Assembly: GCF_963666255.1 (NCBI RefSeq)
Contig: NZ_OY762657.1
Span: forward strand, 310,001 to 374,000
Reading direction: 5' to 3'
DNA length: 64,000 nt
DNA from: an uncultured Propionivibrio sp.
GTDB taxonomy: Bacteria; Pseudomonadota; Gammaproteobacteria; Burkholderiales; Rhodocyclaceae
The stretch's first letter is position 1. Each line of letters begins with the position of its first letter. Positions 1 to 53,991 of the stretch are shown here, piece by piece. The translations under genes and the position numbers were made by a program. Under the pieces are notes generated by a model, which searched no databases, was not told where the DNA came from, and saw only the letters and a list, made by a program, of their open reading frames with translations.

Positions 1-2037
1 CAGGCAGGGACGGGCCGGGATCAAATCCATCATAGCAGGCGTCAGCAGGCGTCGGATGATCTCGCGTTCCAGCACGCCGTCCGCTGCCATGAGATGGGCT
101 TGCTCGATGCGGCAGAGCAACTTTACCGAAGCATCCTGAAAGCGCAACCGAATCATCCGGACACCCTGCTATTGCTCGGTTTCCTGCAGGTGGGCGCGGG
201 ACGATACGCCGAAGCGCTGGACACAACCCGTCGTGCCGTCGCTACAAATCCGCGACACCCTGTGGCGCATTTCAATCAAGGCCTGGCATTGCTCGGCGCG
301 GGCCGGAACGATCAGGCGATTGCCTGCTTTGAACGTGCCATCGCCTTGAAACCGGACTACGCAGAAGCCCACAGCAACCTGGGCCTTGCCCGTCAGAACC
401 TCGGCGATCACACGGGCGCCGTCGCCTGTTTCGATCGCGCCATCGCCTGTTCGCCGAACTTCGACGCGGCCTTCAGCAACCGCGGCATCTCGCTGCAAAA
501 GCTTGGGCGCCATGACGAAGCCATCGCCAGCTTCGATCAGGCACTGTCGATCAATCCGGTCAATGGCGTTGCTTTCAACAACAGAGGCATTTCGCTGCTT
601 GCGCTCTGCCGATACGAGGCAGCACTGAACGATTTTCAACGCGCAATCGAACTGGATGCGGATTATGCCGAGGCGCTCGGCAATTGCGGGCTGGCGCTGC
701 AGTATCTCGAACGCAACGAGGAAGCGGTGGCAAGTTTTGACCGGGCTCTGGCGCTGAATCCGGACAACAGCCCGGCGTACAGCCATCGGGCCATATCGCT
801 CCTGCGGCTCGGGCGCCCGGACGAGGCCGTCGACAGCCTTAACCGGGCACTCGGCGCCGCGCCGGCGTCGGTCGATATACTGAACAACCGCGGCATTGTT
901 CTCCAGCACCTTGGTCGTCTCGATGAGGCGATGGCGTGTTTCCATCAGGCGCTGTCGCTCGATCCGCGCCGGAGCAAGACGCTGAACAATCTCGGCAATG
1001 TCCGGCGCGACCTGAACCAGAGCGAGGCGGCGCTGGACTGTTACGCACAGGCGTTGGCGACCGACGGGACTGATGCGACGATCCATCTCAATGCCGCGCT
1101 CTGCCACCTCCTGCTCGGCGACTTCAAGCACGGCTGGCCGGCTTTCGAATGGCGCTGGGAGACCGAAACATACCGCACGGCACGACGCGACTTTGCCGTC
1201 CCTCGCTGGCTCGGCGACGGAGATCTGACAGGACGAAGGATTCTCCTGCACGCCGAACAGGGCTTCGGCGACACGATCCAGTTCTGCCGCTACGCGCGAC
1301 AGGTCAGCGACCGGGGGGCGACCGTCCTGCTCGAGGTTCAAGCCCCGCTGAAGTCGCTGATGTTCACGCTGGATGGCACCAGCCAGGTTCTGGCCAAAGG
1401 CGAGGCCCTGCCCGAATTTGACTGTCACTGTCCGTTGATGAGCCTGCCACTGGCATTCGCTACCGACCTGGCGACGATCCCGGCCTCGGACCGCTATCTG
1501 TCGAGCGACCCGGAACGCCTGGCTGCCTGGCAGCACCGGTTGCGCCCCGCGGAAAGGAAGCTCAGGGTCGGAATCGCCTGGTCCGGCAATCCGGGATTCG
1601 CCAACGACCGCAACCGTTCGATTCCGCTGGCGAAGTTCGCCCGGTTGTTTTCCGCGCCGGCCCGGTTCTTCAGTTTGCAGCCGACCTTGCGGCCCGCGGA
1701 ACAGGAGATTGTGGCGACCTGCAGCAACGTGATGCACTTCGACGGTCTACTGCGCGACTTTTCCGATACCGCAGCGCTAATCGACGCCATGGATCTGGTG
1801 ATCGCTGTCGATACCGCCGTGGCCCATCTTGCCGGCGCACTCGGCAAACCGGTCTGGGTGCTGTTGCCCTTCAACAACGACTGGCGCTGGCAGCTTGGGC
1901 GAGAGGATTGCCCATGGTACCCATCGGTCAGACTGATCAGACAAGCCGGGCCAGGCGGATGGGACGAGACACTCGAGCGCGCCGCCGCTGCGCTCGCGGC
2001 ACTGTCGTCAGTGGGGCCACTTAACCCGATCGAATAA
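1..2037 (+). CDS. TPR-repeat protein with C-terminal glycosyltransferase-like domain, 5' end cut by window
   Basis: The frame is open from base 1 and has no ATG, GTG or TTG before the ATG at 94. The residues encoded upstream of 94 already look like a TPR helix, so the true start lies outside the window. From 94 there are 647 residues. About ten 34-residue tetratricopeptide repeats come first (for example AEAHSNLGLARQNLGDH). The last ~260 residues resemble the GT9/GT41-like domain often fused to TPRs, with HAEQGFGDTIQFCRYA and DTAVAHLAGALGKPVWVLLP. Such proteins are thought to glycosylate proteins or surface polymers; substrate unknown. It converges on the beta-barrel gene. Confidence 0.85.
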   Translation, partial: QAGTGRDQIHHSRRQQASDDLAFQHAVRCHEMGLLDAAEQLYRSILKAQPNHPDTLLLLGFLQVGAGRYAEALDTTRRAVATNPRHPVAHFNQGLALLGAGRNDQAIACFERAIALKPDYAEAHSNLGLARQNLGDHTGAVACFDRAIACSPNFDAAFSNRGISLQKLGRHDEAIASFDQALSINPVNGVAFNNRGISLLALCRYEAALNDFQRAIELDADYAEALGNCGLALQYLERNEEAVASFDRALALNPDNSPAYSHRAISLLRLGRPDEAVDSLNRALGAAPASVDILNNRGIVLQHLGRLDEAMACFHQALSLDPRRSKTLNNLGNVRRDLNQSEAALDCYAQALATDGTDATIHLNAALCHLLLGDFKHGWPAFEWRWETETYRTARRDFAVPRWLGDGDLTGRRILLHAEQGFGDTIQFCRYARQVSDRGATVLLEVQAPLKSLMFTLDGTSQVLAKGEALPEFDCHCPLMSLPLAFATDLATIPASDRYLSSDPERLAAWQHRLRPAERKLRVGIAWSGNPGFANDRNRSIPLAKFARLFSAPARFFSLQPTLRPAEQEIVATCSNVMHFDGLLRDFSDTAALIDAMDLVIAVDTAVAHLAGALGKPVWVLLPFNNDWRWQLGREDCPWYPSVRLIRQAGPGGWDETLERAAAALAALSSVGPLNPIE

Positions 2038-39807: not shown

Positions 39808-41973
39808 TCAGCGACCTTCGGCGAGGGCCAGCCAGGAGGGGTCGGGCCAGCGGGCGACCCAGCCGGGCACGTCTTCCGCCGGCATCGGCCGGGCAATGCC
39901 GTAACCCTGGAACTGATGACATCCGAGACTGAGCAGCAACCTGGCGTGCTCAAGCGTTTCCACCCCTTCGGCGACGACCTGGCGATCGAAGGCACTGGCC
40001 AGTCCAATCACGCCGGAGACGATGGCGAGGTCACCCTTGTCTTCCATCATGTTGCGGATGAAGGACTGGTCGATCTTCAGCGTATCGGCCGACAGGGCGC
40101 GCAGGTAGGTCAGCGAGGAATAGCCGGTGCCGAAATCGTCGAGCGAAAAGCCGACGCCATGCGCACGGCAGGCGACGATGACCCGCTCGACATGTTCGAT
40201 GTTGTCGAGACGCGAGCTCTCCAGCACCTCGATCTCCAGACTGCCGGTCGGTACCTCGGGATGTGCGGCGAGCAAGGCCTGCAGGCGCTCGATGAAATCG
40301 TTCTGGAGCAGGTGCTGGGCGGCGATATTGACGCTGACGCACAACGCAAGCCCCTGCGTGCGCCAGCGCGCGACCTGCGCCAGCGCCTCGCCGATCACCC
40401 AGTCGCCCAGATCGACGGCAAAAGCGTCTTCCTCGATCGCCGGCAGGAATGCGCCCGGCGGCAACAGGCCGCGTTCCGGATGACTCCAGCGGATCAGCGC
40501 CTCGACACCGGTGATCGTCCGCGTTTCGAGGTCGACCTTCGGCTGGTAGTAAAGAACGAATTCCCGACGCGACAAGGCAGCGCGCATCAGCTCGATGCTT
40601 TCGTACTGTTCCCGCACGCGGCGGTCGCCTTCGGCGTCGAACAGCTCCTGCCGCCCCTTGCCGAGCTGCTTGGCGCGCATCATCGACTGGTCGGCATGGC
40701 GCAGCAGGGTGTCGGCGTCGGCACTGTCCTGAGGATAGATCGTCACGCCAATGCTGGCGCTCACGGTGATGACAGCGGTATCGGAAACGAAGGGTTCGGA
40801 CAGCCGCGCGCTGACGTTGTCGAGGAAGGCCGTCAACTCCATGTGGCTGTTGATGCCAAGCACGAGCAGCACGAATTCGTCTCCGCCGACGCGCGCCAGC
40901 GTGTCGCCGCCGCGCAGGCAGCCGCGCAGGCATTCGGCCGTATTGATCAGCAGATGGTCGCTGATCTCCTGGCCGTGGGCCGCGTTGAGCGAGGCAAAGC
41001 CATCGAGGTCGATATAGCAGACCGCCATCCAGCAACCCGTCTGTTTCGCCTGCGCCACGCCCTGGCGAATTCGCTCGGTCAGCAGCATGCGGTTCGGCAG
41101 GCCCGTCAGCGCATCGTAATGCAACGAGAATTCGAGTTTCAGCCGGTGTTCGCGCGCTTCCAGCCGCAACTGTTCCTCGATCTTGCGGCGTTCGGTGATG
41201 TCCTGCAGCATCAGGATGTGCGCCCGGCAGCCCGGATAGGCAACGCACTGGACGATGCCCTCGGTCTCGACCTGGCGGCCATCGGCATGCGAGAGGCGCA
41301 GGTGCCCGGTCAGGACCGCTTCCTCGGAATGCTCGGTCAGGTTCCGCGACAGCGCCCGCATCGCATCGCGCTGCTCACGCTCAAGCATGAAGCCGAGCGA
41401 ACTGCCGACCCACCGTTGGCGCGGATAGCCGAGCATGCGCGTGCAGGCGCCATTGACCTCGACGATCTTCCAGGTGTCGGCGTCATAGACAATGACGGCC
41501 AGCGGACTGTCCTCGAAGAGCACGCGGTAACGCGCCTCGCTCTCTTCGAGCGCCCGCGTGCGTTCGGCCACCCGGCGCTCAAGATCGCGCTTGATGCCGT
41601 TGAGCTCAAGATGGGTTCTGACGCGTGCCAGCACCTCTTCGGCCTGGAAGGGCTTGGTCACGTAGTCGATGCCGCCGGCGCCGAACGCCATGACTTTGTC
41701 CTCGACCTCGTTCATCGCGCTGATGAAGATCACCGGGATATCGCGGGTGGCCACGTCGGCCTTGAGCCGGCGACACACCTCGAAGCCGCTCATCTCCGGC
41801 ATCTTGACGTCGAGCAGGACGAGATCCGGCCGCCGCTTGGCCACCGCGCGCAAGGCGACATCGCCCGACAGTGCCGCATGCACGCGGAAAGGTTCGCGCC
41901 TGAGGATATCGCTCAGCACCTGCAGGTTGATGGGATTGTCATCAACCACGAGGATATCGGCGCGATCATCCAT
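39808..41973 (-). CDS. REC-PAS-GGDEF-EAL c-di-GMP signalling protein
   Basis: 721 residues. Receiver domain 1-125 (phospho-acceptor D55 in LLDVKMPEMSG), a PAS region about 145-265, GGDEF about 285-440 and EAL about 460-710. The GGDEF site is intact (G363-F367), with an RGGD product-inhibition site five residues before it (354-357). The EAL site is intact (491-493), and DDFGTGYSS is present. Both synthesis and breakdown of c-di-GMP are therefore possible. Its ATG abuts the cheB stop (TGA then ATG), so it ends the chemotaxis operon and may be phosphorylated by CheA. Confidence 0.9.
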   Translation of the reverse strand: MDDRADILVVDDNPINLQVLSDILRREPFRVHAALSGDVALRAVAKRRPDLVLLDVKMPEMSGFEVCRRLKADVATRDIPVIFISAMNEVEDKVMAFGAGGIDYVTKPFQAEEVLARVRTHLELNGIKRDLERRVAERTRALEESEARYRVLFEDSPLAVIVYDADTWKIVEVNGACTRMLGYPRQRWVGSSLGFMLEREQRDAMRALSRNLTEHSEEAVLTGHLRLSHADGRQVETEGIVQCVAYPGCRAHILMLQDITERRKIEEQLRLEAREHRLKLEFSLHYDALTGLPNRMLLTERIRQGVAQAKQTGCWMAVCYIDLDGFASLNAAHGQEISDHLLINTAECLRGCLRGGDTLARVGGDEFVLLVLGINSHMELTAFLDNVSARLSEPFVSDTAVITVSASIGVTIYPQDSADADTLLRHADQSMMRAKQLGKGRQELFDAEGDRRVREQYESIELMRAALSRREFVLYYQPKVDLETRTITGVEALIRWSHPERGLLPPGAFLPAIEEDAFAVDLGDWVIGEALAQVARWRTQGLALCVSVNIAAQHLLQNDFIERLQALLAAHPEVPTGSLEIEVLESSRLDNIEHVERVIVACRAHGVGFSLDDFGTGYSSLTYLRALSADTLKIDQSFIRNMMEDKGDLAIVSGVIGLASAFDRQVVAEGVETLEHARLLLSLGCHQFQGYGIARPMPAEDVPGWVARWPDPSWLALAEGR

Positions 41974-43032
41974 TCACAGCGCTCCCGGTCCCTTCATGAT
42001 GGCGCCGGCCAGCGAGGTCAGCGGCAGGCTGCGATCGACGCCGCCGTGCTTGACCGCTTCGCGCGGCATGCCATAGACGACGCAGCTCGCCTCGTCCTGC
42101 GCCAGCGTGTAGGCGCCGGCGTCGTGCATTTCCTTCATCCCCCGCGCGCCGTCGTCGCCCATGCCGGTCATGATCACGCCCATGGCATTCTTGCCGGCAT
42201 ATTTGGCAACCGAGCGGAAGAGCACATCGACCGAAGGCCGGAAGCGATTGACGAGCGGTCCGTCCTTGATCTCGACCTGATACTGCGCGCCGCTGCGCAC
42301 CAGCTGCATGTGCTTGCCGCCCGGCGCGATGAGCGCCTGCCCCGGCAGGACGCGCTGGCCGTGCTTGGCCTCGAAGACCGAGATCTCGCAGAGCTTGTCG
42401 AGCCGCGCCGCGAACGACGCCGTATAGCGTTCCGGCATATGCTGGACGATGACGAGGCCGGGACAGACACGCGGCAGCTCGGTGAGCAGGACTTCGAGCG
42501 CGACGGTACCGCCGGTCGAGGTGCCGACGGCGACGATGCGCTCGGTCGTCTGCGCCATCGCCGAGGTGACCGCCGGCCGCGGATGCGGCTGCCGGCACAG
42601 CTGCGTGCCGGTACGCACCGCGCCCATGTTGGCGCGCGCCGCCGACTTGACGGCGACGATGAGGTCGTCAGCGGCATTCTGCAGAAAGCCCTCGACGCCC
42701 AGCGTCGGCTTGGTGATGATGCTGACGGCACCGGCAGCCAGCGCCTGCAGGGTCGTCTCGGCGCCTTCGGTCGTCAGCGACGAGCAGACCACCACCGGCG
42801 TCGGCCGCTCGGCCATGAGCTGTCCGAGGAAGGTGACGCCGTCCATGCGCGGCATCTCGATGTCGAGCGTGATGACGTCGGGCCAGTCCCGGCGCATCTT
42901 TTCGATGGCGAACAGGGGATCCGGCGCCGTGCCGATGACCTTGATATCCGGATCGCGCTCCAGCACCGCGGTCATCACCTTGCGTACCACCGCCGAATCG
43001 TCCACCACCATGACGCGGATTGGCTTACCCAT
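41974..43032 (-). CDS. cheB: Chemotaxis protein-glutamate methylesterase/glutaminase CheB (cluster A)
   Basis: 352 residues; the ATG at 43032 is six bases from GGGAG, and the ATG at 43035 is an alternative. Receiver domain about 1-125 ([10 protein letters not shown]). Catalytic domain about 160-350 with Ser in [12 protein letters not shown], His in IVQHMP and Asp in MGDDGARGM. It removes methyl groups from, and deamidates, MCPs when phosphorylated by CheA. Paralogue of the CheB at 60131. No cheR occurs in this cluster; the only cheR is in cluster B. Confidence 0.95.
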
Positions 43033-43134
43033 CATTCACTCCCGTTATCGATCCTGCCCAAATTGTTTCAATTCATTCTGCATGACAACGAATTGACGTC
43101 GATCGTTCCCCGCGCGATGCGCATGCTCGTCGCA

Positions 43135-45057
43135 TCAGAACTTGACGAAGTCCTTCAACTCCGACGCCGGCGGCACCTTGCCAGCGACCGGAACCGGCGA
43201 CGGCACGGCAATCGTGGCATCGACGGTGGCAAGTCCGGCAAAGCCTTCCTGGCCGGACACCTTGAAGCGCGACATCAGCTGCTTGAGACTTTCGGCCTGC
43301 GCGTTCATTTCCTCGGCCGTCGCCGACAACTCTTCCGAAGCCGCCGCGTTCTGCTGCGTCACGCTGTTGAGCTGCGTCATCGCCTGGCTGATCTGCCCGG
43401 CGCCGGTGGTCTGCTCTTCCGATGCCGCCGTGATTTCCCGCACCAGCTCGGCCGTCTTGCGGATCGACGGCAGCATCGTCTCCAGCAGGTTGCCGGCCTG
43501 CTCGGCCTGCTCGACGCTGCTCGCCGCCAACTCGCCGATTTCCTGCGCCGCCACCTGCGAGCGCTCGGCCAGCTTGCGCACTTCCGCCGCCACCACGGCA
43601 AAGCCCTTGCCGTGCTCACCGGCCCGCGCCGCCTCGATCGCCGCATTGAGCGCCAGGAGATCGGTGCGATAGGCGATGTCGTCGATGATCGAGATCCGCC
43701 CGGCAATCGACTTCATCGCGTCCACCGTCGATTTCACCGCCACACCGCCCGACAACGCGTCCTGCGACGCCTGATGGGCGATGCCGTCGGTCGTCTTGGC
43801 GTTGTCGGTATTCTGCGCGATCGATGCCGACATCTGCTCGACCGCCGCCGTCGTCTCTTCGAGGCTCGCCGCCTGCTCCGACGTCGCTTGCGACAGCGCC
43901 TGTGAGGTTGCCGCCACCTGCGACGAGGCGCTCGTCAGCTCACCTGCCGAAATACGGATTTCATCGACGATCTGGCGCAGGCGCAGCACCATGTTGCGCA
44001 TGGCGCTCATCAGGCGCCCGGTTTCGTCGGAAGATGTCACGGCCACCTCTACCGTCAGATCGCCCTCGGCAATGCGGAAGGCAGCCTGCATCGCCGCCTG
44101 CACCGGAGCAATGACCTGCCGTCGCAACAGAACAACGAGTAATGCGATCAGCAGGACGCAGGCCAGCACGCCGACTGCGGCGATCTCGCCGATCCGATCG
44201 CGGCTGATTTCGCTGACTTCGCGGTGCGGATAAGCAGCGAAGACACTGAAGCCCCAGGCCGGGAAGTCTTCCTTGAGCACGTCCCATCCGCCGCCGGCGG
44301 ACTTGACCGTCTTGACGACGGCATCATCGTCGACATGTCCCGAGCGGAAGCGAACCTTGTCATGATCGTCGACAATGGCGATGAAGCCGCTCGCCAGCAG
44401 CCGCGTGGCGCCGACGATCTCCTTCAGCGCCGCCATGTCGACCTTGTAGCCGACGTACCAGATGCCGATCGTCTGCCCCTGTGCGTCGCGGATCGGCTCG
44501 TAGCCGGTGATGTAGGGATTACCCAGAATATCGACCTTGCCGTAGAACGCCTGCCCCTTGAGGATGGCGGCAATCGCCTTGCCGGCCGGATCGAGAACGG
44601 TACCGATGGCGCGTTCGCCTTCGGTCTTCACGTTCGTCGAGACGCGCACGAATTCGTCGCCATGACGGACGAAGAGCGTCGCCGTTCCTCCCATCGCCCG
44701 GACGACGCCGTCGACGAGCTCGTACTGGAGGTTCTGCGGCTTGCCGCCGAACATCAGGCCCGGCACCGTCTTGCCCCTGACCGCGACCGCCGGCCCCAGC
44801 GTCGCCGCGCCAAGCACCCGGCTGCGCTCGATCAGAATGTTCATGGCCGCCCGCGTCTGCTGGTTCATCAGCGCATCGGTCACGCCCATCAACTCGTTGA
44901 CGCCCCGCATCTGCCGCCGCGCCTGCGCCGCGATTTCCCGGTCGATACGCTGCGCCTCGCTCAGCGAAAAAGCCGTCGCCCCGGCCGCCACCAGCGCCAC
45001 GACCAGTACCGACACCGGCACGATGAAACGCAGCAGCAAACTGTTCTTGATTCTCAT
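43135..45057 (-). CDS. Methyl-accepting chemotaxis protein with Cache-type sensor
   Basis: 640 residues. Membrane span about 8-30; periplasmic Cache region about 35-285 (fits the Cache_3/Cache_2 fusion type, [20 protein letters not shown]); second span about 293-315; HAMP about 315-370; signalling hairpin with the tip [20 protein letters not shown]. The C-terminal pentapeptide DFVKF after a flexible linker fits the aromatic-x-x-aromatic docking tail for CheR/CheB. Located between cheW and cheB. Ligand unknown. Confidence 0.93.
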
Positions 45058-45163: not shown

Positions 45164-45724
45164 TCATTCATTCTGTGCATCGACCGCCTTGATCGCCGCC
45201 ATCTCCTCGATCGACAGCGCCCGGCCGACGTCGAGAATGATGATGAACTTGCCATTGACGCGCGCCATCCCCTCGATGAACTCGGTATTGACGCGGGTAC
45301 CGAAGCTCGGCGCCGGTTCGACATTGGCGGCATCGATCTCCATCACCGCATTGACGCCATCGACCATCAGTCCGAGCACATGCGTCGCGCCCTCGTGCTG
45401 CACCTCGACGATGACGATGCAGGTGCGCTTGCCGACACCGGTCGCCTCACGGCCAAAGCGGATGGCGAGGTCGATGACCGGTACCACCGAGCCGCGCAGG
45501 TTGATGACGCCGCGCACCGACGGCGGCATCATCGGAACACTCGTCGGCACGCTGTATTCGATGATTTCCCGGATACGCAGGATATCGATCGCGAATACCT
45601 CGTCGGACAGGCGGAACGCCAGGTACAACTGCTCCGCGCCAACACCTTGCGAGACCAGATTGCCGCCCGGATTCGACGACACAGGGGACGACACCGCGCC
45701 CGCAACAGCAACATCCGTAGTCAT
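45164..45724 (-). CDS. cheW: Chemotaxis coupling protein CheW
   Basis: 186 residues. The CheW fold spans about 30-175 (YLAFRLSDEVFAIDILRIRE; PPSVRGVINLRGSVVPVIDL; LGLMVDGVNAVMEI). It links MCPs to CheA. A Ser/Gly-rich N-terminal 28 residues precede the domain. Preceded by GAGGAGACATC. It lies between two MCP genes and is the only cheW in the window. An ATGA tetranucleotide run covers its stop and the following bases. Confidence 0.94.
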   Translation of the reverse strand: MTTDVAVAGAVSSPVSSNPGGNLVSQGVGAEQLYLAFRLSDEVFAIDILRIREIIEYSVPTSVPMMPPSVRGVINLRGSVVPVIDLAIRFGREATGVGKRTCIVIVEVQHEGATHVLGLMVDGVNAVMEIDAANVEPAPSFGTRVNTEFIEGMARVNGKFIIILDVGRALSIEEMAAIKAVDAQNE

Positions 45725-45733
45725 GATGTCTCC

Positions 45734-47887
45734 TCAGAATTTAACGAAATCCTTCAACGCGTCGGCGGTCATCGGCGCGACCCGGGCCGGCACCTTCTGC
45801 ACCGGTTTCGCGACCGCCTTCCCGCCGGCCGGCACATCGGCCGCCACCGTGAATTGCGCCATCAGGTCTTTCAGGTTCTCGGCCTGCGCGTTCATCTCCT
45901 CGGCCGTCGCCGACAGTTCTTCCGAGGCCGAGGCGTTCTGCTGCGTCACGCTGTTAAGCTGCGCCATCGCGTGGCTGATCTGGCTCGTCCCGGTACTCTG
46001 CTCTTCCGATGCCGCCGTGATTTCGCGCACCAGGTCCGCCGTCTTGCGGATCGACGGCAGCATCGTCTCGAGCAGACCACCGGCCTGCTCGGCCGTATCG
46101 ACGCTGCTCGTCGCCAGTTCGCCGATTTCCTGCGCCGCGATCTGCGAACGCTCGGCCAGCTTGCGCACTTCCGCCGCCACCACCGCGAAGCCCTTGCCGT
46201 GCTCGCCCGCCCGCGCCGCTTCGATTGCCGCGTTCAGCGCCAGCAGGTCGGTGCGATAGGCAATGTCGTCGATGATCGAGATCTTCCCGGCGATCGACTT
46301 CATCGCCTCGACCGTCGACTTCACCGCTTCGCCGCCCGACAGCGCGTCCTGCGAGGCCTTGCGCGCGATGCCGTCGGTCGTCTTGGCGTTGTCGGTGTTC
46401 TGTGCGATCGATGCCGACATCTCCTCGATCGCCGCCGTCGTCTCTTCCAGGCTCGCCGCCTGTTCCGAGGTCGCCTGCGACAGCGATTGCGAGGTCGCCG
46501 ACACCTGCGACGACGCGCTCGTCAGCTCGGTCGCCGACGCCCGTACCTGCGCAATGATCGACGACAGCCGCTCGACCGTGTTGTTCACGCTCGCCTGCAG
46601 TCCGCCGAAGTCGCCCTGGTAGTTGCCATTGACGCGCCGCGTCAGGTCGCCCTGCTCCACGGCCGCCATCACATCGCGCACTTCGTCGATCGGCGCCACC
46701 ACCGCGTCCATCGTCGCGTTGATCCCGTCGATGATCGCCCGGAACTCGCCCTGATGCTTCGCCGCATCGGCGCGCACGCTGAGCTTGCCCTGCTGCGCCG
46801 ATGCCGACAGCGTATTGGCATCCTCGACCAGCGTCCTGACCGTCCCGCTCATGCCCTTGACCGCCGCCATCAGCGTGCCGAATTCGCCCCGGTATTCGGT
46901 ATCGGAACGTTGCGACAGATCGCCCTTCTCGACGGCGACCATGACGCGCTTGACCTCGTCGATCGGCCCGGCCACCGCCACCATCGTGTTGTTGATTCCC
47001 TCAACGATCGCCCGGAACTCACCCTGGTGCTTCGCCGCGTCGGCCCGCGCATCGAGCTTGCCGGCGGCTGCCGCCGCAGACAGCACGTTGGCATCGGCAA
47101 TCATCGCCTGCACCGAGGTTTTCACCGTCATGACGGCGCGGAAGACGTCGCCGGCCTCGTCCTTCGCCTGCGTGTCGAGCGTGAAGTCGAAATCGCCCGC
47201 GGCCATCCGGTCGGACACCGTGACGACATCGGCAAGCGGCCGGGCGATCGAGCGCGAGATCATCCAGCCGAGGAAGGACAGGATCACCATGAGACCGAGC
47301 GAGATCGAGCCCATGATCAGCAGCGAGCGCTGGAACGCGGCATCGACGTCATCGATGTAGATGCCGGTACCGAGCACCAGGTTCCAGGGCTTGAACAGCG
47401 TCGCATAGCCGAGCTTCGGCGTTACCCGCTGCGTATCGGGCTTGGGAAACTCATAGGCGACATAGCCGCCGCCAACCATCGCCACGCCGATCAATTCCTT
47501 GAGCAGGAATTTGCCGTTCGAATCCTTCATGTCCAGCTTGTTCTTGCCTTCGAAGTCGCGGTTCGGCGGCAGCAGGTAGTACACGCCCTGGGTATCGAAG
47601 CCGAACAGGTAGTTACCGTTCTCGAAGCGCATCACGCGCAGGGTTTCGATCGCGGTTTCCCGCGCCTCTTTTTCCGGCATCTTGCCGGCAACGGCGAGTT
47701 GATGGTAATGCTCCATGACACCAACGCCGACCTCGACCAGGCTCTTGATCCGCAGTTTGCGGTCGTCGAGCATGCTGTCGCGGATGGCGAAGAGGGAGAC
47801 CGCACAGACCAGCAGCAGGCCAAGCGCGGTGAGCACGCTGAGCACCTGTGTGCGCGTACTCACCCGGAACGATCTGAGCCATTTCAC
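45734..47887 (-). CDS. Methyl-accepting chemotaxis protein with sCache_2 sensor and repeated HAMP-like modules
   Basis: 717 residues from a GTG at 47887, with AAGGAG seven bases upstream. Span about 12-34; periplasmic sCache_2 region about 40-185 ([28 protein letters not shown]); span about 190-212; HAMP; then two copies, 91 residues apart (about 282 and 373), of a module beginning [13 protein letters not shown]; then the signalling hairpin. The tail is DFVKF. The 3' 0.94 kb is nearly identical to that of the next MCP gene. Confidence 0.93.
45836..46776. repeat. Long DNA repeat, copy 1 (MCP signalling region)
   Basis: 941 bp aligning without any gap to 48050-48990 (constant offset of 2214), with only scattered substitutions, mostly synonymous. 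It encodes the last HAMP-like module and the whole signalling hairpin. Confidence 0.85.
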
Positions 47888-47947: not shown

Positions 47948-49831
47948 TCAGAACTTGACGAAATCCTTCAATTCCTCGGCGGCACCCAATGCCACCTTGG
48001 TCGCCTTCTTGGCCGGCTTTGCCGCTTTCGCGCCACTGATGACCGTGCCATCGGCCGCCACCGTGAATTGCGCCATCAGGTCTTTCAGGTTCTCGGCCTG
48101 CGCGTTCATTTCCTCGGCCGTCGCCGACAGTTCTTCCGAGGCCGAGGCGTTCTGCTGCGTCACACTGTTGAGTTGCGCCATCGCGTTGCTGATCTGGCTC
48201 GTCCCGGCGCTCTGCTCCTCCGATGCCGCCGTGATTTCGCGTACCAGATCGGCGGTCTTGCGGATCGACGGCAGCATCGTCTCGAGCAGGCTGCCCGCCT
48301 GTTCGGCCGTATCGACGCTGCTCGTCGCCAGTTCGCCGATTTCCTGCGCCGCAATCTGCGAACGCTCGGCCAGCTTGCGCACTTCCGCCGCCACCACCGC
48401 GAAGCCCTTGCCATGTTCGCCCGCCCGAGCCGCTTCGATCGCGGCGTTCAGCGCCAGCAGGTCGGTGCGATAGGCAATATCGTCGATGATCGAGATCTTT
48501 CCGGCGATCGACTTCATCGCCTCGACCGTCGACTTCACCGCTTCGCCGCCCGACAGCGCGTCCTGCGACGCCTTGCGTGCGATCCCGTCGGTCGTTTTGG
48601 CGTTATCGGTATTCTGCGAGATCGATGCCGACATCTCCTCGATCGCCGCCGTCGTCTCTTCCAGGCTCGCCGCCTGTTCCGAGGTCGCCTGCGACAGCGA
48701 TTGCGAGGTCGCCGACACCTGCGACGACGCGCTCGTCAGCTCGGTCGCCGACGCCCGCACCTGCGCGATGATCGACGACAGCCGGTCAACCGTGTTGTTC
48801 ACGCTCGCCTGCAATCCGCCGAAGTCGCCCTGGTAGTTGCCATTGACGCGCCGCGTCAGGTCGCCTTGCTCGACCGCCGACATCACTTCGCGCACTTCGT
48901 CGATCGGCGCCACCACCGCGTCCATCGTCGCGTTGATCCCTTCGATGATCGTCCGGAATTCGCCCTGGTGTTTCGCCGCATCCGCCCGCATCTCGAGTTG
49001 CCCTTGCTTGGCTGCTGCCGACAAGCCGTGCGCATCGGCGACCAATGCCCGAATCGTGGCGCTCATGTGATCCATTGCCACCATCATGCTCGTGCTGTCG
49101 CCTGCCCGAAGCGTGATCTTCGTCGACAGATCCCCGGCGGCGATCCGGTTGGCCACTTCTGCCGCGAAATCAGGCTCACCCCCCATCTGACGGAGCAGTG
49201 TTCTCGTCACCAAGAACCCTATCAGCATCACCGCCAGCAGCGTGAGTGCCGACACGCTCCAGGCGACTACCACCGAACTGTTCCTGATCGCTACCGCCTC
49301 GTCCGCGGCCTTAACGCCGAGGTCAACGTTGTACTGGAAGTGCTTCTGGATCGCATCCTCGAGGGCGTTAGCCTGTGTTCTGGCGCTTTCCAGGAGATCC
49401 CTGGCCTTTTCATTATGGTTGGCGCGCGACTCGATCAGAATCGGCTCGATCTTCGCCTCGAATTCAGCGAGCAGCTTGCCTTCCTGGCTGAGCAAGTCCC
49501 GATCCTTGCCGTCGGCGACCAAGGGCTCATATTTCTTGATCTGCGCCGCGATGTCTTCTCGGGCGCTCTTGATCGTCGCTTCGACTTCGGCCATTTTCGT
49601 GCCATCGGCATTCATGATGTGCCGTGCCACACGCAGACGCAGCGCCAGCACGGCGCGGCGCATGTCGCCAAGGACGATCAAGCTCGGCACGGTGTTAACG
49701 TTGGCGAAATTCGCCGACTCGTAGATCCGGTGCATCTGGTATTGACCGAGACCGGTCAATATCCCGATGCCGAGCAAGGCCGCGCCGACCAGCGCGATCA
49801 TTTTTTGTGCCACGGTCAATTTTGCTGACAT
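47948..49831 (-). CDS. Methyl-accepting chemotaxis protein with four-helix-bundle sensor
   Basis: 627 residues from the ATG at 49831, with AGGAGAATCGAT upstream; the longer frame to 49867 lacks a site. Span about 10-30; periplasmic 4HB_MCP helices about 33-185 ([20 protein letters not shown]); span about 190-212; HAMP and one [11 protein letters not shown] module; signalling hairpin. The Ala/Lys-rich linker ends in DFVKF. It follows cheA by 57 bp. Most of its cytoplasmic part is a near copy of the MCP at 45734. Confidence 0.93.
48050..48990. repeat. Long DNA repeat, copy 2 (MCP signalling region)
   Basis: Partner of 45836-46776, in direct orientation. Recombination between the copies would delete the 5' part of the upstream-transcribed pair and produce a hybrid receptor. 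Confidence 0.85.
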
Positions 49832-49888
49832 ATCGATTCTCCTGAGAGTTTTCCTTTCATTCACCACGCCTTGCCCGAACCTGGCACG

Positions 49889-52090
49889 TCAAGGCTCGGG
49901 CAGCGCCGTCAAAGCGGGTTTTCTTGCGACGGGCTTGTTCCGGGAAATGCTCGAGCAATGCCGGATCAGCGCCGGAACGTCGAGAATCATGCCGACATCG
50001 CCGTTGCCGATGATCGTGGACCCCGAGACCGCCGGCACCTCGGTGAACAAGGGGCCGAGCGGCTTGATGACCGTCTGGCACTTGCCGTAGATGCGATCGA
50101 CGACGAGCCCTGCGCGCCGGCTGCCGAAGCGCACGACGATGATGCGCGGGCGCGGATGCGCCGGGCCCTCCTCGTGGAAGACGTCGCGCAGGCGAATGAA
50201 CGGCAGGGGCTCGCCGCGCTGTTCGAAATATTCGGCATCACCGATATCGGGCGGCAATTCGATGCATTCGACGACCATGTCGAGCGGGATGATGAAATGC
50301 GAGCTGCCGACACCGACGTGGAAGCCGTCGATGATCGCCAGCGTCAGCGGCAGACACAAGCGCATCGTCGTGCTCTGGCCCGGCACCGACTCGATGTCGA
50401 GCGTGCCGCGCAAGGCCTCGATGTTGCTGCGCACAACGTCCATGCCGACGCCGCGCCCCGAGAGATTGGTGATCTTCTCGGCCGTCGAGAAACCCGGGGC
50501 CAGGATCAGCCGATAGACATCCTGATCGGAGAGAATCGCCTCCGGCGAAATCAGTCCCTGTTCCACGGCTTTCCTGAAGATGCGCTCGCGGTCGAGCCCG
50601 CCGCCGTCGTCCTTGACCTCGATGTTGATGCTGCCCGACTCGTGGTAGGCGTTGAGTTCGACCGTGCCGAACTCGGGCTTGCCCCGCGCGCGCCGGACCT
50701 CGGCCGGTTCGATGCCGTGATCCATCGAGTTGCGCACGAGGTGCATGAGCGGGTCGCCGATCTTCTCGACCATCGATTTGTCGAGTTCGGCTTCGGCCCC
50801 GTGGATGCGCAGTTCGATCTGCTTGCCGAGTTCCTTGGAGACGTCGCGCACGACGCGCGGGAAGCGCGAGAACACCTCGCCGATCGCAACCATGCGCAGG
50901 CGCAGCGCCATGTCGCGGATATCCTCGACCAGCGAGAGCAGGAGGTCGGCCGATTCGAGCAAGTCGGGCTTGTCGAGGCGGCCGATCTGGGCATGCGTGC
51001 CGACGCCGGCGATGACCAGTTCGCCGACGCGGTCGATCAGCGCATCGAGCCGTTCGGCCGGCACCTTGACGCTCTTCGACTCGACGTTGCGCCGCTCCTC
51101 GGCATGGATCTGCTTCTTGACCGCTGCCTCGACCACCGTCGGCTGCACGGCGCCCTGCTCGATCAGGATCTCGCCGATACGGGCCGGCGCGTCGGTGCGT
51201 TGCTGCTCGGCCAGCGCCTGTTCAAGTTCCTTGGCCGTCACCGAGCCACAGGCCACGAGGATTTCACCAATACGTGAAACGTCGCCACGCAAGGCTTCGA
51301 TCTGGCTCAGAAATTCGGCGATACGGCTCTGCGGCGGCAGGATGACGATCTGCGAATTTTCCTGGACGAATTCGAACACACCCTCGATCTCGGCCTTGCT
51401 CGCCGAACTGATCAGCGAGACCTCGAAACCGAGATAGCAGATCTCCGGATCGGCGCCGTCGAAATCCGGCAGCCGGTCGGTGACCGTTTCGACGTGGGCG
51501 ATCTTGCCGTACTGGTTGAGGTAATTGATGAAGGCCAGCGGGTCCATGCCGTCCTGCAGCACGCCTTCGCCAAAGCGCAGCGACAGGTGCCAGTGATCGG
51601 CGGCCATCACCGCGCTGCCATCCTGCCCGCGCTCCGGCTCGACCGGCGCTTCCGGCGCCGGCGCCGGCGTCGTCGCCACCGCGCTGCCGGCCACCTGGCC
51701 GAGCACGCCCTGCAATTCGACGATCAGCGCGTCGCTGCGTTCCACCGGCATCTCGCTGTGCTCGGCCACCGCCACGATCAGGTTGGATATATGATCCTGG
51801 CATTCAAGCAGCAAGGTGATCAGGGCGCTGTCGAACTGCAGGCTGCCCTTGCGCAGGCGGTCGAGCAGGTTCTCGACGACGTGGGTGAAGCGCACCACCT
51901 CGTCGAGCCCGAACAGGCCGCCCGAGCCCTTGATCGTATGGGCGCAGCGAAACAGCGCGTTGAGGTCCTCCTCGTCGCAGGCCGCATCCTCGGCACGCAA
52001 GAGGATCGCCTCCATCTGGTCGAGCAGTTCCCGCGCCTCCTCCATGAACGCGCCGAGCGCTTGCGACAGGTCAATGCTGGAATCGGCCAT
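49889..52090 (-). CDS. cheA: Chemotaxis histidine kinase CheA with tandem MshEN-like motifs
   Basis: 733 residues. P1 (HPt) about 5-115 with phospho-His 51 in HTIKGSGGLFG; Pro/Ala linker; P2-like domain about 165-255 (HLSLRFGEGVLQDGMDP); two RIGEIL repeats at 273-296 and 304-327; P3 dimerisation about 335-400; P4 ATPase about 400-560 (LVRNSMDHGIEP, KDDGGGLD, GRGVGMDVV); P5 CheW-like about 565-705. It phosphorylates CheY and CheB in response to MCPs. The repeats are not part of standard CheA and resemble c-di-GMP-binding MshEN motifs. It sits between the STAS gene and an MCP gene. Confidence 0.95.
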   Translation of the reverse strand: MADSSIDLSQALGAFMEEARELLDQMEAILLRAEDAACDEEDLNALFRCAHTIKGSGGLFGLDEVVRFTHVVENLLDRLRKGSLQFDSALITLLLECQDHISNLIVAVAEHSEMPVERSDALIVELQGVLGQVAGSAVATTPAPAPEAPVEPERGQDGSAVMAADHWHLSLRFGEGVLQDGMDPLAFINYLNQYGKIAHVETVTDRLPDFDGADPEICYLGFEVSLISSASKAEIEGVFEFVQENSQIVILPPQSRIAEFLSQIEALRGDVSRIGEILVACGSVTAKELEQALAEQQRTDAPARIGEILIEQGAVQPTVVEAAVKKQIHAEERRNVESKSVKVPAERLDALIDRVGELVIAGVGTHAQIGRLDKPDLLESADLLLSLVEDIRDMALRLRMVAIGEVFSRFPRVVRDVSKELGKQIELRIHGAEAELDKSMVEKIGDPLMHLVRNSMDHGIEPAEVRRARGKPEFGTVELNAYHESGSINIEVKDDGGGLDRERIFRKAVEQGLISPEAILSDQDVYRLILAPGFSTAEKITNLSGRGVGMDVVRSNIEALRGTLDIESVPGQSTTMRLCLPLTLAIIDGFHVGVGSSHFIIPLDMVVECIELPPDIGDAEYFEQRGEPLPFIRLRDVFHEEGPAHPRPRIIVVRFGSRRAGLVVDRIYGKCQTVIKPLGPLFTEVPAVSGSTIIGNGDVGMILDVPALIRHCSSISRNKPVARKPALTALPEP

Positions 52091-52100
52091 GGCCTTCTCC

Positions 52101-52415
52101 TCAGGATTCGACGGCAGCGAGATACAGCGGGTCGCCGAGCGCGCTGCCGAGATTGGCGAGATCGACGAGCCGCAGCACGGCCGGCGGATGATTGACGAAC
52201 TGCACCGATTTGCCCGGATAGCGTTTGGCGATCAGCATCAGCTGCAGTCCGGCGGTATCCATTTCGGTCACGCCGGTCAGATCGATTTCCAGTTCATCGA
52301 CTGCCAGGAGCTCGGCGGCCAGCGCCGCCTTGAGTTCGCCGACCGTGTAGATCGTCAGTTCGCCGGTCAGCGTTGCCACCGACCGAGTCCCGTCCCGTTG
52401 GAATTCGAGTCCCAT
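52101..52415 (-). CDS. STAS-domain protein (anti-sigma-antagonist-like), cluster A
   Basis: 104 residues forming a single STAS domain: LTGELTIYTVGELKAAL, then LEIDLTGVTEMDTAGLQLML. The usual phosphorylatable Ser after the Asp is a Thr here (EMDTAG), still able to accept phosphate. There is no SpoIIAB-type kinase in the window. It lies 10 bp upstream of cheA and 7 bp downstream of cheY, so it likely works within the chemosensory pathway. A second STAS gene occupies the matching place in cluster B. Confidence 0.87.
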   Translation of the reverse strand: MGLEFQRDGTRSVATLTGELTIYTVGELKAALAAELLAVDELEIDLTGVTEMDTAGLQLMLIAKRYPGKSVQFVNHPPAVLRLVDLANLGSALGDPLYLAAVES

Positions 52416-52422
52416 GATTGCC

Positions 52423-52788
52423 TCACATCAGCAGTTTGGAGACCACCGCCAGCATCTGCTGCGGCTGGAAGGGCTTGACGACCCAGGCCTTGGCACCGGC
52501 CTCCTGCCCTGCCTTCTTTTTCTCCTCGGCCCCTTCGGTGGTCAGCATGACCACCGGCACGAACTTGTAGGCGGGCAGCTTCTTCATTTCCCGCACGAAG
52601 GTGATGCCGTCCATGTTGGGCATGTTGACGTCGCTGATGACGAGGTGGATCTTGCGCCCGTCGAGCTTGGCCAGTGCATCCTTGCCATCGACAGCCTCGA
52701 TCACCTCGTAGCTGTTGCTCTTGAGCGCCATGCTGACGACCTGACGCATCGAGGTCGAATCATCAACAATCAGAATGGTTTTGCTCAT
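52423..52788 (-). CDS. cheY: Response regulator CheY (cluster A)
   Basis: 121 residues, a single receiver domain. Acidic pair IVDDSTSMRQVV, phospho-acceptor Asp in LVISDVNMPNMDG, conserved Thr in VVMLTTEG and Lys in VVKPFQPQQM. It is phosphorylated by CheA and signals to the flagellar motor or another output. Placed directly after the MCP-like gene and before the STAS gene. Confidence 0.94.
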   Translation of the reverse strand: MSKTILIVDDSTSMRQVVSMALKSNSYEVIEAVDGKDALAKLDGRKIHLVISDVNMPNMDGITFVREMKKLPAYKFVPVVMLTTEGAEEKKKAGQEAGAKAWVVKPFQPQQMLAVVSKLLM

Positions 52789-52818: not shown

Positions 52819-53991
52819 TCAGAAAAAGGTGACATCGGACTCGGCAACTGCCCCGCGCGCTGCCGGATGGGCGTGATCGTGCTGCTCGATCGTCGTGTAC
52901 ATGCGCTCGATCGCGGTCACCCAGGCCGACACGTCGATCGGCGCCGGAACGCCGGCGGCCGACAGGCTCGCCTCATCCTCTTCCACCCGCTGCCGGAGCA
53001 GGTGGATGCCGCCGACGACGGCCTGAAGGATCTGGCTGACGCGATCCTGGAACTGCAGATGCACCATGACCGCCTCGATATGCTCGCGTACCTGCAGGCT
53101 GCCGGCGCTCATGCTCTCTGCCTCACTGGCGAGTTCGCCGACCAGTCCGCCGATGCGTTCGAGCACCGAGTGGATCGTCGCGCCGGAATCGTTCATCAAC
53201 GCGGTGTTCTGCGCCGACAGGTGCGAGGCCGTGCCGAGCGCCGCCAGCGTCGCCTGGCTGACGGCATCGACCTTGATCTGGATTTCCTGCCCGAGCTTGC
53301 CGGACTGGTTCGACAGCTTGCGCACCTCGTCGGCGACCACCGCGAATCCCCGTCCGGCCTCGCCGGCGCGTGCGGCTTCAATGGCGGCATTGAGCGCCAG
53401 CAAATTGGTCTGCTTGGCGATATCGGCAACGCCCTCCGCCATGCGCTTGAGATCGTCGTTAACACCCGACAGGCTGTTGAACTGGTCGAACATCGGCTTT
53501 TGCGCCGCGAACGCGTGCTCCAGGCGCTCCAGCATATGCACAAGCTCGCCGCGCGCGCCGTCGAGCACGCCGACCGCGCCCTGCTCGGACGTATTCTGAT
53601 GCCGGTCGAGCATCTGATGCAGTTCCGTCAGGATCGCGCCGAACCCCTGCGTCAATTCGCCGCCGGCCGTTTCGATCTGCAGGCGGGCGATATCGACATG
53701 CCTGGCCCAGCGCGCCATCGACGCTTCCGACGCCGCATGCAGGCTGGTGACATACGGGACCAGCGCACGCGCATCGGCAGCCGCCCCGCGCTCGCTGTCA
53801 TCGCTCGCCGCCACCGGCGTCGGGCGATGCTCCAGTACCGAGACCACCGCCATGGCACCGACCAGGCCGGCAGCAAGCGCCAGTCCCAACGTCAATGACG
53901 CCTGGCTCCACACCAGCAGACCGCCGCCGGCCGCCGCGACGGCCATCGACCCCCAGCGCACCCGTTTCAGCAAGGATTCAGATTCATTCAT
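52819..53991 (-). CDS. Short membrane MCP-like protein with CheZ-like FQDxxxQ motif (cluster A)
   Basis: 390 residues. Two hydrophobic segments (about 13-52) form a membrane hairpin with no periplasmic sensor or HAMP. A receptor-type hairpin tip follows ([19 protein letters not shown], about 193-211; [10 protein letters not shown]). Residues 310-326 contain [16 protein letters not shown], in which D316 and Q320 have the spacing of the catalytic Asp and Gln of CheZ. The C-terminus is DVTFF. It may be a CheY-P phosphatase or adaptor. Start overlaps the preceding REC gene (ATGA). Confidence 0.85.

Follow-up and report, generated by a model that had tools for sequence, protein, structure and literature searches.

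The MshEN domain of the ATPase MshE binds cyclic di-GMP (c-di-GMP) through two motifs, in each of which R1, L2, G3, L17, L21 and Q24 contact the ligand, with G3 and Q24 hydrogen-bonding to it, while the hydrophobic residues in the middle of the motif form the core; each motif holds one half of a single c-di-GMP molecule (PMC5013675). Two consecutive units of this kind are present in a CheA kinase encoded on a stretch of 64,000 nucleotides from an uncultured Propionivibrio sp. (contig NZ_OY762657.1, positions 310,001 to 374,000), which is referred to as the window. The present analysis establishes the identity, predicted fold, position, conservation and genomic class of this pair of units. On balance, CheA residues 273-327 are likely to be an MshEN_N, i.e. 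the half of the MshE/GSPII domain that binds the ligand, which is located between P2 and P3 and would bind one c-di-GMP and tune the kinase.

That MshEN occurs together with CheA is already in print, since Wang et al. (2016) name CheA among the partners of the domain in a single clause that refers to Supplementary Table 4, while the main-text passages of that paper that hold the word describe or test no CheA (PMC5013675). What is added here is that the pair is spread through a class of CheAs and that G3 and Q24 are fixed in both of its units. Exact-phrase searches for c-di-GMP binding by CheA had no match in the open-licence literature, and no published binding test of the MshEN-CheA pairing was found in the part of that literature consulted. 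CheY-like proteins provide another link between c-di-GMP and chemotaxis. The links described in a study of a PilZ chemoreceptor and in one of c-di-GMP heterogeneity through the chemotaxis machinery reportedly act elsewhere than on CheA.

Two MshEN-type units in a CheA kinase

The kinase was identified as CheA by Hpt, H-kinase_dim, HATPase_c and CheW-like domains, which follow each other in this order and all exceed their Pfam cut-offs (Table 1). As described in a first-pass annotation of the window, two 24-residue units, both starting with RIGEIL, occupy residues 273-296 and 304-327 with a 7-residue spacer between them, and the coordinates given there, 51110-51274 on the minus strand, proved exact (residue 273 begins at 51274 and residue 327 finishes at 51110). 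Between the two units, 11 of the 24 positions are identical, compared with at most 10 identities for the best ungapped 24-residue pair (offsets 24-59) in 60 shuffles of the protein. With respect to the consensus R-L-G...G...L...L..Q, positions 1, 3, 10 and 24 are identical in both units and positions 2, 17 and 21 are aliphatic. Position 11 deviates (Ser, Ala), as had been noted before; compared by eye with the relaxed motif of Wang et al. (PMC5013675), unit 2 agrees and unit 1 departs from it solely at this position. Because the contacts named in MshE exclude position 11, the Ser/Ala substitution affects a core position and not a ligand contact. The spacer is longer than the five residues of MshE; this length is not required, since GSPII-C of PilF has seven, and among 65 CheA sequences passing the two-unit motif pattern (see below) the spacer ranges from 7 to 22 residues.

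More telling for the reality of the pair than the shuffle test is the match to the NCBIfam profile NF053729.1 (“cyclic di-GMP-binding domain-containing protein, MshE-related”), which aligns over its full length (positions 1-53 of 53) with CheA 273-327 at 47.6 bits (cut-off 38, E 1e-12). In the whole genome only two matches exceed this cut-off, namely CheA and a 583-residue frame of PilB type (label assigned here), and the best of the five others listed at E<=1, at 18.7 bits, is the first half of a pair in a second CheA. When the pair was searched as a single sequence against PDB chains, PilF (E 5.3e-9), PilB (from 2.4e-6), further PilF, MshE (0.022) and PilB chains ranked first, and four unrelated sequences appeared at E >=1.3. 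With a profile, A1, built from 57 segments (the window CheA, the second CheA and the 55 of 64 relatives passing the motif pattern that were included), 14 of 14 PDB matches at E<=1 were PilF, PilB or MshE.

By contrast, the Pfam family PF05157 (“MshEN”) has no match in CheA at E<=10. In the 583-residue frame the c-di-GMP motif ends at C2:1548464 and PF05157 begins at the next base, C2:1548465; the silence of Pfam is uninformative because PF05157 models the C-terminal subdomain, the other half of the domain, and it was rejected as a test of membership. Five frames of the genome pass PF05157, of which only the 583-residue frame has the motif above the cut-off; another, a 783-residue frame (C2), has a weak NF053729.1 match of 17.2 bits. 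The MshEN-profile search suggested in the first-pass annotation is thus answered by NF053729.1, whereas PF05157 alone would have misled. Since CheA has no match to the C-terminal α/β subdomain and P3 comes next, it holds MshEN_N only and not a whole MshEN/GSPII domain. An 80-residue CheA segment also gave Pfam matches below the cut-offs to DUF4388 (E 0.0011) and AbiEi_3 (E 0.018). The DUF4388 match falls on residues 273-329, at the units, and DUF4388 may be a distant relative of the pair, perhaps containing a distant copy of the motif.

Folded alone, CheA 255-345 was predicted (predicted local distance difference test 87, predicted template modelling score 0.76) to form four helices, at 274-281, 286-298, 305-311 and 317-339, preceded by a short helix at 257-266, with the fourth helix continuing into P3. 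The model superposes on MshE (5htl_B) with 0.9 Å over 57 columns at 35% identity, so that the four-helix fold of MshEN_N is present, as a predicted model only.

Ligand-contact positions and their conservation

At the contact positions 1, 2, 3, 17, 21 and 24, unit 1 reads R I G L L Q and unit 2 R I G V V Q; compared with MshE, eight of the twelve residues are identical and four are conservative (Ile or Val for Leu). The first-pass annotation had envisaged a model with two c-di-GMP molecules, which does not agree with MshE, where one molecule spans both motifs (PMC5013675). Conservation was assessed in 31 loci fetched by profile for which DNA was returned: 20 from the search of the host family (48 strong matches), one of which is the second CheA in the genome, plus 11 from the search of the class (33 listed). 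Profile A1 behind these loci was itself built of pattern-passing sequences and the second CheA. Unit 1 has G3, G10, L21 and Q24 in all 31 loci, R1 in 26, Leu at position 17 in 27 and Ala at position 11 in 27. In unit 2, G3 and Q24 are again present in 31 of 31, as are aliphatic residues at positions 2 and 17. The positions fixed in both units are therefore those that hydrogen-bond the ligand in MshE. This invariance is quoted from the profile-fetched loci and not from sequences picked by the motif pattern, which itself requires G3 and Q or N at position 24. A Lys or Arg at position 23 of unit 2, directly before Q24, is fixed in 16 representatives and lies outside the published motif; it could touch a ligand phosphate.

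The earlier call of an MshEN-like domain is thus upheld by the curated profile, the PDB sequence profile, the predicted fold and the conserved ligand-contact positions, and the combination that was to have overturned it, a missing profile match together with a different fold, was not observed.

Distribution and loss of the pair

In the host family, Rhodocyclaceae, profile A1 gave 48 matches at E<=1.3e-20, spread over 32 of the 61 genomes; after a gap, matches resume at E 2e-11 and are mostly frames of 570-600 residues. According to our own reading of two tables, 47 of the 48 are followed immediately by an H-kinase_dim match that shares their strand and lies in a frame of equal length (the exception is G011:C8). 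About one third of the CheA-type kinases in the family genomes drawn carry the pair (47/145). Wider draws (E<=1e-12, own genome included) found it in 25 of 321 class genomes and in 9 of 299 from the phylum, all nine belonging to the host class. The closest named relative is Propionivibrio dicarboxylicus (93%).

The two-unit pattern is passed by 65 of 81 aligned CheAs (the query and 80 loci), all of which have Q24 in both units. Among the 16 that fail, four keep R-x-G of unit 1, lack unit 2 and have kept Q24 in no case; seven from Herbaspirillum and Duganella have retained the central part of unit 1 (SGALT, for example), with Q24 absent and G3 mostly absent; and in L021, L060, L078 and L080 unit 1 is absent in the aligned frame. 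Loss of unit 2 is accompanied by loss of Q24 from unit 1 in L006, L023, L039, L071 and the seven Herbaspirillum/Duganella loci, with L077 as the exception. The two half-sites thus tend to disappear together, which fits paired half-sites. Some of these cases (L021, L077, L080) may be broken genes of metagenome-assembled genomes. A FastTree phylogeny of P3-P5 comprised 116 sequences (96 with the pair, 15 without and 5 controls; L060 and, by the length filter, control L170 were left out), and parsimony placed 8 changes of presence on it. The seven Herbaspirillum/Duganella sequences, still with their remnant of unit 1, branch first, while the remaining sequences without the pair are nested among those bearing it; support is weak in places.

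Neighbouring genes

The cluster reads MCP-like / CheY / STAS / CheA / MCP / MCP / CheW / MCP / CheB / REC-PAS-GGDEF-EAL (MCP, methyl-accepting chemotaxis protein; Table 1). The two adjacent MCPs downstream of CheA have, by eye, unlike sensor parts and nearly identical signalling halves, as if they stemmed from tandem duplication or gene conversion. The GGDEF/EAL protein that the first-pass annotation placed at the operon end is indeed there, as the final che-type gene on that strand before a DctP gene (39808-41973); its sequence has GGDEF, an RxxD five residues ahead of it, and EAL. Speculatively, CheA could phosphorylate its receiver domain and so close a feedback loop. As support for control of CheA by c-di-GMP, which it had also been taken for, this gene was not upheld: genes of this type occur near 8 of 19 pair-bearing CheAs and 12 of 20 other CheAs and are not distinctive. 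The comparison used phmmer with the domains of the window on 20-kb regions (one of 13.4 kb) chosen, non-randomly, from matches on longer contigs; two of the 19 are the neighbouring, overlapping clusters of this genome, and the GGDEF/EAL gene of the window, at the cut edge of its region, was scored as a miss.

In the same regions a STAS gene adjoins CheA in 19 of 19 pair-bearing cases; none was found in any of the 20 regions surrounding other CheAs. Among the 80 relatives it is adjacent in 25 of the 63 pair-bearing loci for which the upstream DNA exceeds 400 bp, and in 12 of 16 lacking the pair, so STAS was rejected as a marker of the pair itself and, standing beside relatives of both kinds, marks the class of CheA. 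Apart from L034, the 38 misses among pair-bearing loci all fall in the block L036-L076 (37 loci); many of these come from Rhodoferax or further Comamonadaceae, for which the single-sequence STAS query may be too weak.

The second CheA has its own CheY/MCP-like/STAS/CheA cluster (region L157), so that two kindred che clusters lie side by side on opposite strands. Its pair is degenerate (RLGEML...Q / PLGEIL...Q), with a longer spacer and Arg at the Gly10 position of unit 2.

Table 1. Features of the CheA protein and of its gene cluster (positions in the window unless stated otherwise).
Feature	CheA residues	Position	Strand	Basis or remark
CheA, 733 aa		49889..52090	minus	domains by Pfam and full-length AlphaFold secondary structure
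P1/Hpt	11-97			Pfam, over cut-off
P2-like region	~158-253			label assigned here
Folded segment	255-345	51056..51328	minus	structure prediction
MshEN_N-like pair	273-327			between P2-like region and P3
Unit 1	273-296	51203..51274	minus	RIGEILVACGSVTAKELEQALAEQ
Spacer, 7 residues	297-303	51182..51202	minus	QRTDAPA
Unit 2	304-327	51110..51181	minus	RIGEILIEQGAVQPTVVEAAVKKQ
P3/H-kinase_dim	338-396			Pfam, over cut-off
P4/HATPase_c	447-583			Pfam, over cut-off
P5/CheW-like	590-711			Pfam, over cut-off
REC-PAS-GGDEF-EAL protein		39808..41973	minus	Pfam; GGDEF and EAL signature motifs present
CheB		41974..43035	minus	
MCP with Cache domain		43135..45057	minus	
CheW		45164..45724	minus	
MCP, adjacent second		45734..47887	minus	
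MCP, downstream of cheA		47948..49867	minus	
STAS-domain protein		52101..52415	minus	directly upstream of cheA
CheY-like receiver		52423..52788	minus	
MCP-signalling-domain protein		52819..53991	minus	upstream of cheY; putative soluble MCP (label assigned here)
Second CheA, 744 aa		L093:4225-6459 = genome C3:374225-376459	opposite	~0.2 kb beyond window end

Possible function and alternative explanations

The pair is quite likely to bind c-di-GMP, and by analogy with known binders its dissociation constant (KD) might lie between ~0.3 and several µM. An effect of the ligand on the output of the kinase appears somewhat probable. The pair sits on the tether that would link the phosphate-carrying arm (P1, P2) to the core (P3-P5). 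If a single c-di-GMP bridged both units, it would lock the two helical hairpins onto one another and stiffen this joint, and for this reason either the accessibility of P1 or the geometry of the dimer is expected to be affected: the long fourth helix, which runs into P3, could pass the change on and alter the presentation of the P1/P2 arm to the kinase core, so that c-di-GMP would tune the flow of phosphate from the receptor array. As to the direction, high c-di-GMP might dampen the output, which is a guess. If the pair binds c-di-GMP, the chemosensory kinase would be a direct target of the messenger that switches cells between swimming and biofilm. The chances seem even that the whole paralog class of CheAs from CheY / MCP-like / STAS / CheA clusters, common in the host family, is equipped with its own c-di-GMP sensor, placed between P2 and P3; c-di-GMP would then gate the kinase itself, beyond receptors, CheY or the motor.

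Several observations weigh against binding of c-di-GMP and control of the kinase by it. The full-length AlphaFold model has low confidence for unit 2 (residues 299-310 and 313-315 below 50), the best Foldseek E-value for the segment model is 0.13, and helical bundles reach high Z scores by chance. Unit 1 has Lys at position 17 in one of the 31 loci, while in unit 2 Arg1 is kept in just five (Pro in 15, Gln in 7), Gly10 likewise in just five, and position 21 is Ala in eight. In MshE, Ala at the contact Leu positions lowered the affinity about tenfold or more, with ~tenfold for position 21 (PMC5013675), and V17 and V21 of unit 2 are smaller than the Leu and Ile tested in known binders. GSPII-A of PilF has a perfect consensus and bound only after removal of a capped helix and of the C-terminal half (PMC12002112); GSPII-C of PilF has three motifs, so that its binding pair is ambiguous. 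The second CheA scores 27.2 with NF053729.1, below the cut-off of 38. L077 has a deletion in unit 2 and has kept Q24 of unit 1; the pair was lost more than once and is therefore dispensable; and c-di-GMP enzymes are not enriched within ~10 kb of pair-bearing CheAs. Part of the drift is tolerated in known binders, because GSPII-C, with Pro at position 1 of motif II, is credited with c-di-GMP binding (KD2 460 nM in PilF1-482), and GSPII-B, without either Arg, binds at 6 nM (PMC11731258). In GSPII-A constructs, Ile at positions 17 and 21 of motif II cost 2.4-fold and G3 to Ala a further tenfold, and binding can be obstructed both by a first helix that is elongated and capped and by the C-terminal half (PMC12002112); in the CheA model the first helix of the pair begins only behind the Arg, at residue 274, and there is no C-terminal half.

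The drift at positions 1, 10 and 21 of unit 2 and the lack of enrichment of c-di-GMP genes would also be explained if a true MshEN_N fold served CheA as a protein-docking or spacer module, for which there is precedent in the non-binding GSPII domains of XpsE (PMC5013675) and of PilF (GSPII-A), and in the PilZ protein that, according to the titles of PDB 7lko and 7lkm, is also bound by PilB N-terminal domains. This is unlikely, however, as G3 and Q24, reported to be lost in non-binders (PMC5013675; PMC12002112), are invariant in both units at 31 of 31 loci, and a docking face has no obvious need for them. The ligand might also bind and decide where, or with which array, CheA assembles and leave catalysis alone; MshEN is known chiefly from the motors of pili and secretion systems, and the pair-bearing CheAs form their own paralog class with STAS genes, but the pair abuts P3, which favours a conformational effect and makes this explanation rather improbable. 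That two amphipathic helical repeats merely resemble MshEN by chance would be conceivable for a short motif of common residues and for helical bundles, which match easily; it is hardly credible, being contradicted by a match of E 1e-12 above a curated cut-off, by PDB matches that all fall into one family and by conservation over 31 loci. An MshEN_N that binds one c-di-GMP and tunes the kinase therefore remains the favoured reading.

Comparison with known systems

The pair also matches a stretch of the NCBIfam model of NfrB, a c-di-GMP-activated glycosyltransferase, at 19-20 bits, far below the whole-protein cut-off; NfrB is a different enzyme with a different arrangement. PilB of Geobacter type shares the 7-residue spacer by alignment. 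The best sequence match in the PDB is GSPII-C of Thermus thermophilus PilF (best stretch 303-360), which likewise has a 7-residue spacer and whose Pro at position 1 of motif II recurs in 15 of 31 CheA loci. GSPII-C differs from the CheA pair by a third motif and a C-terminal subdomain, whereas in the CheA of the window both units begin with Arg. Similarly, MshEN_N of Vibrio cholerae MshE (PDB 5htl) has two tandem 24-residue motifs, a four-helix bundle on which the predicted CheA bundle can be superposed, and ligand contacts that are kept or conservatively replaced in CheA. In comparison with MshE, CheA has a spacer of seven residues instead of five, Ser or Ala at position 11, Ile or Val in place of four Leu and no C-terminal subdomain, and the pair is placed inside a CheA and not at the start of an ATPase.
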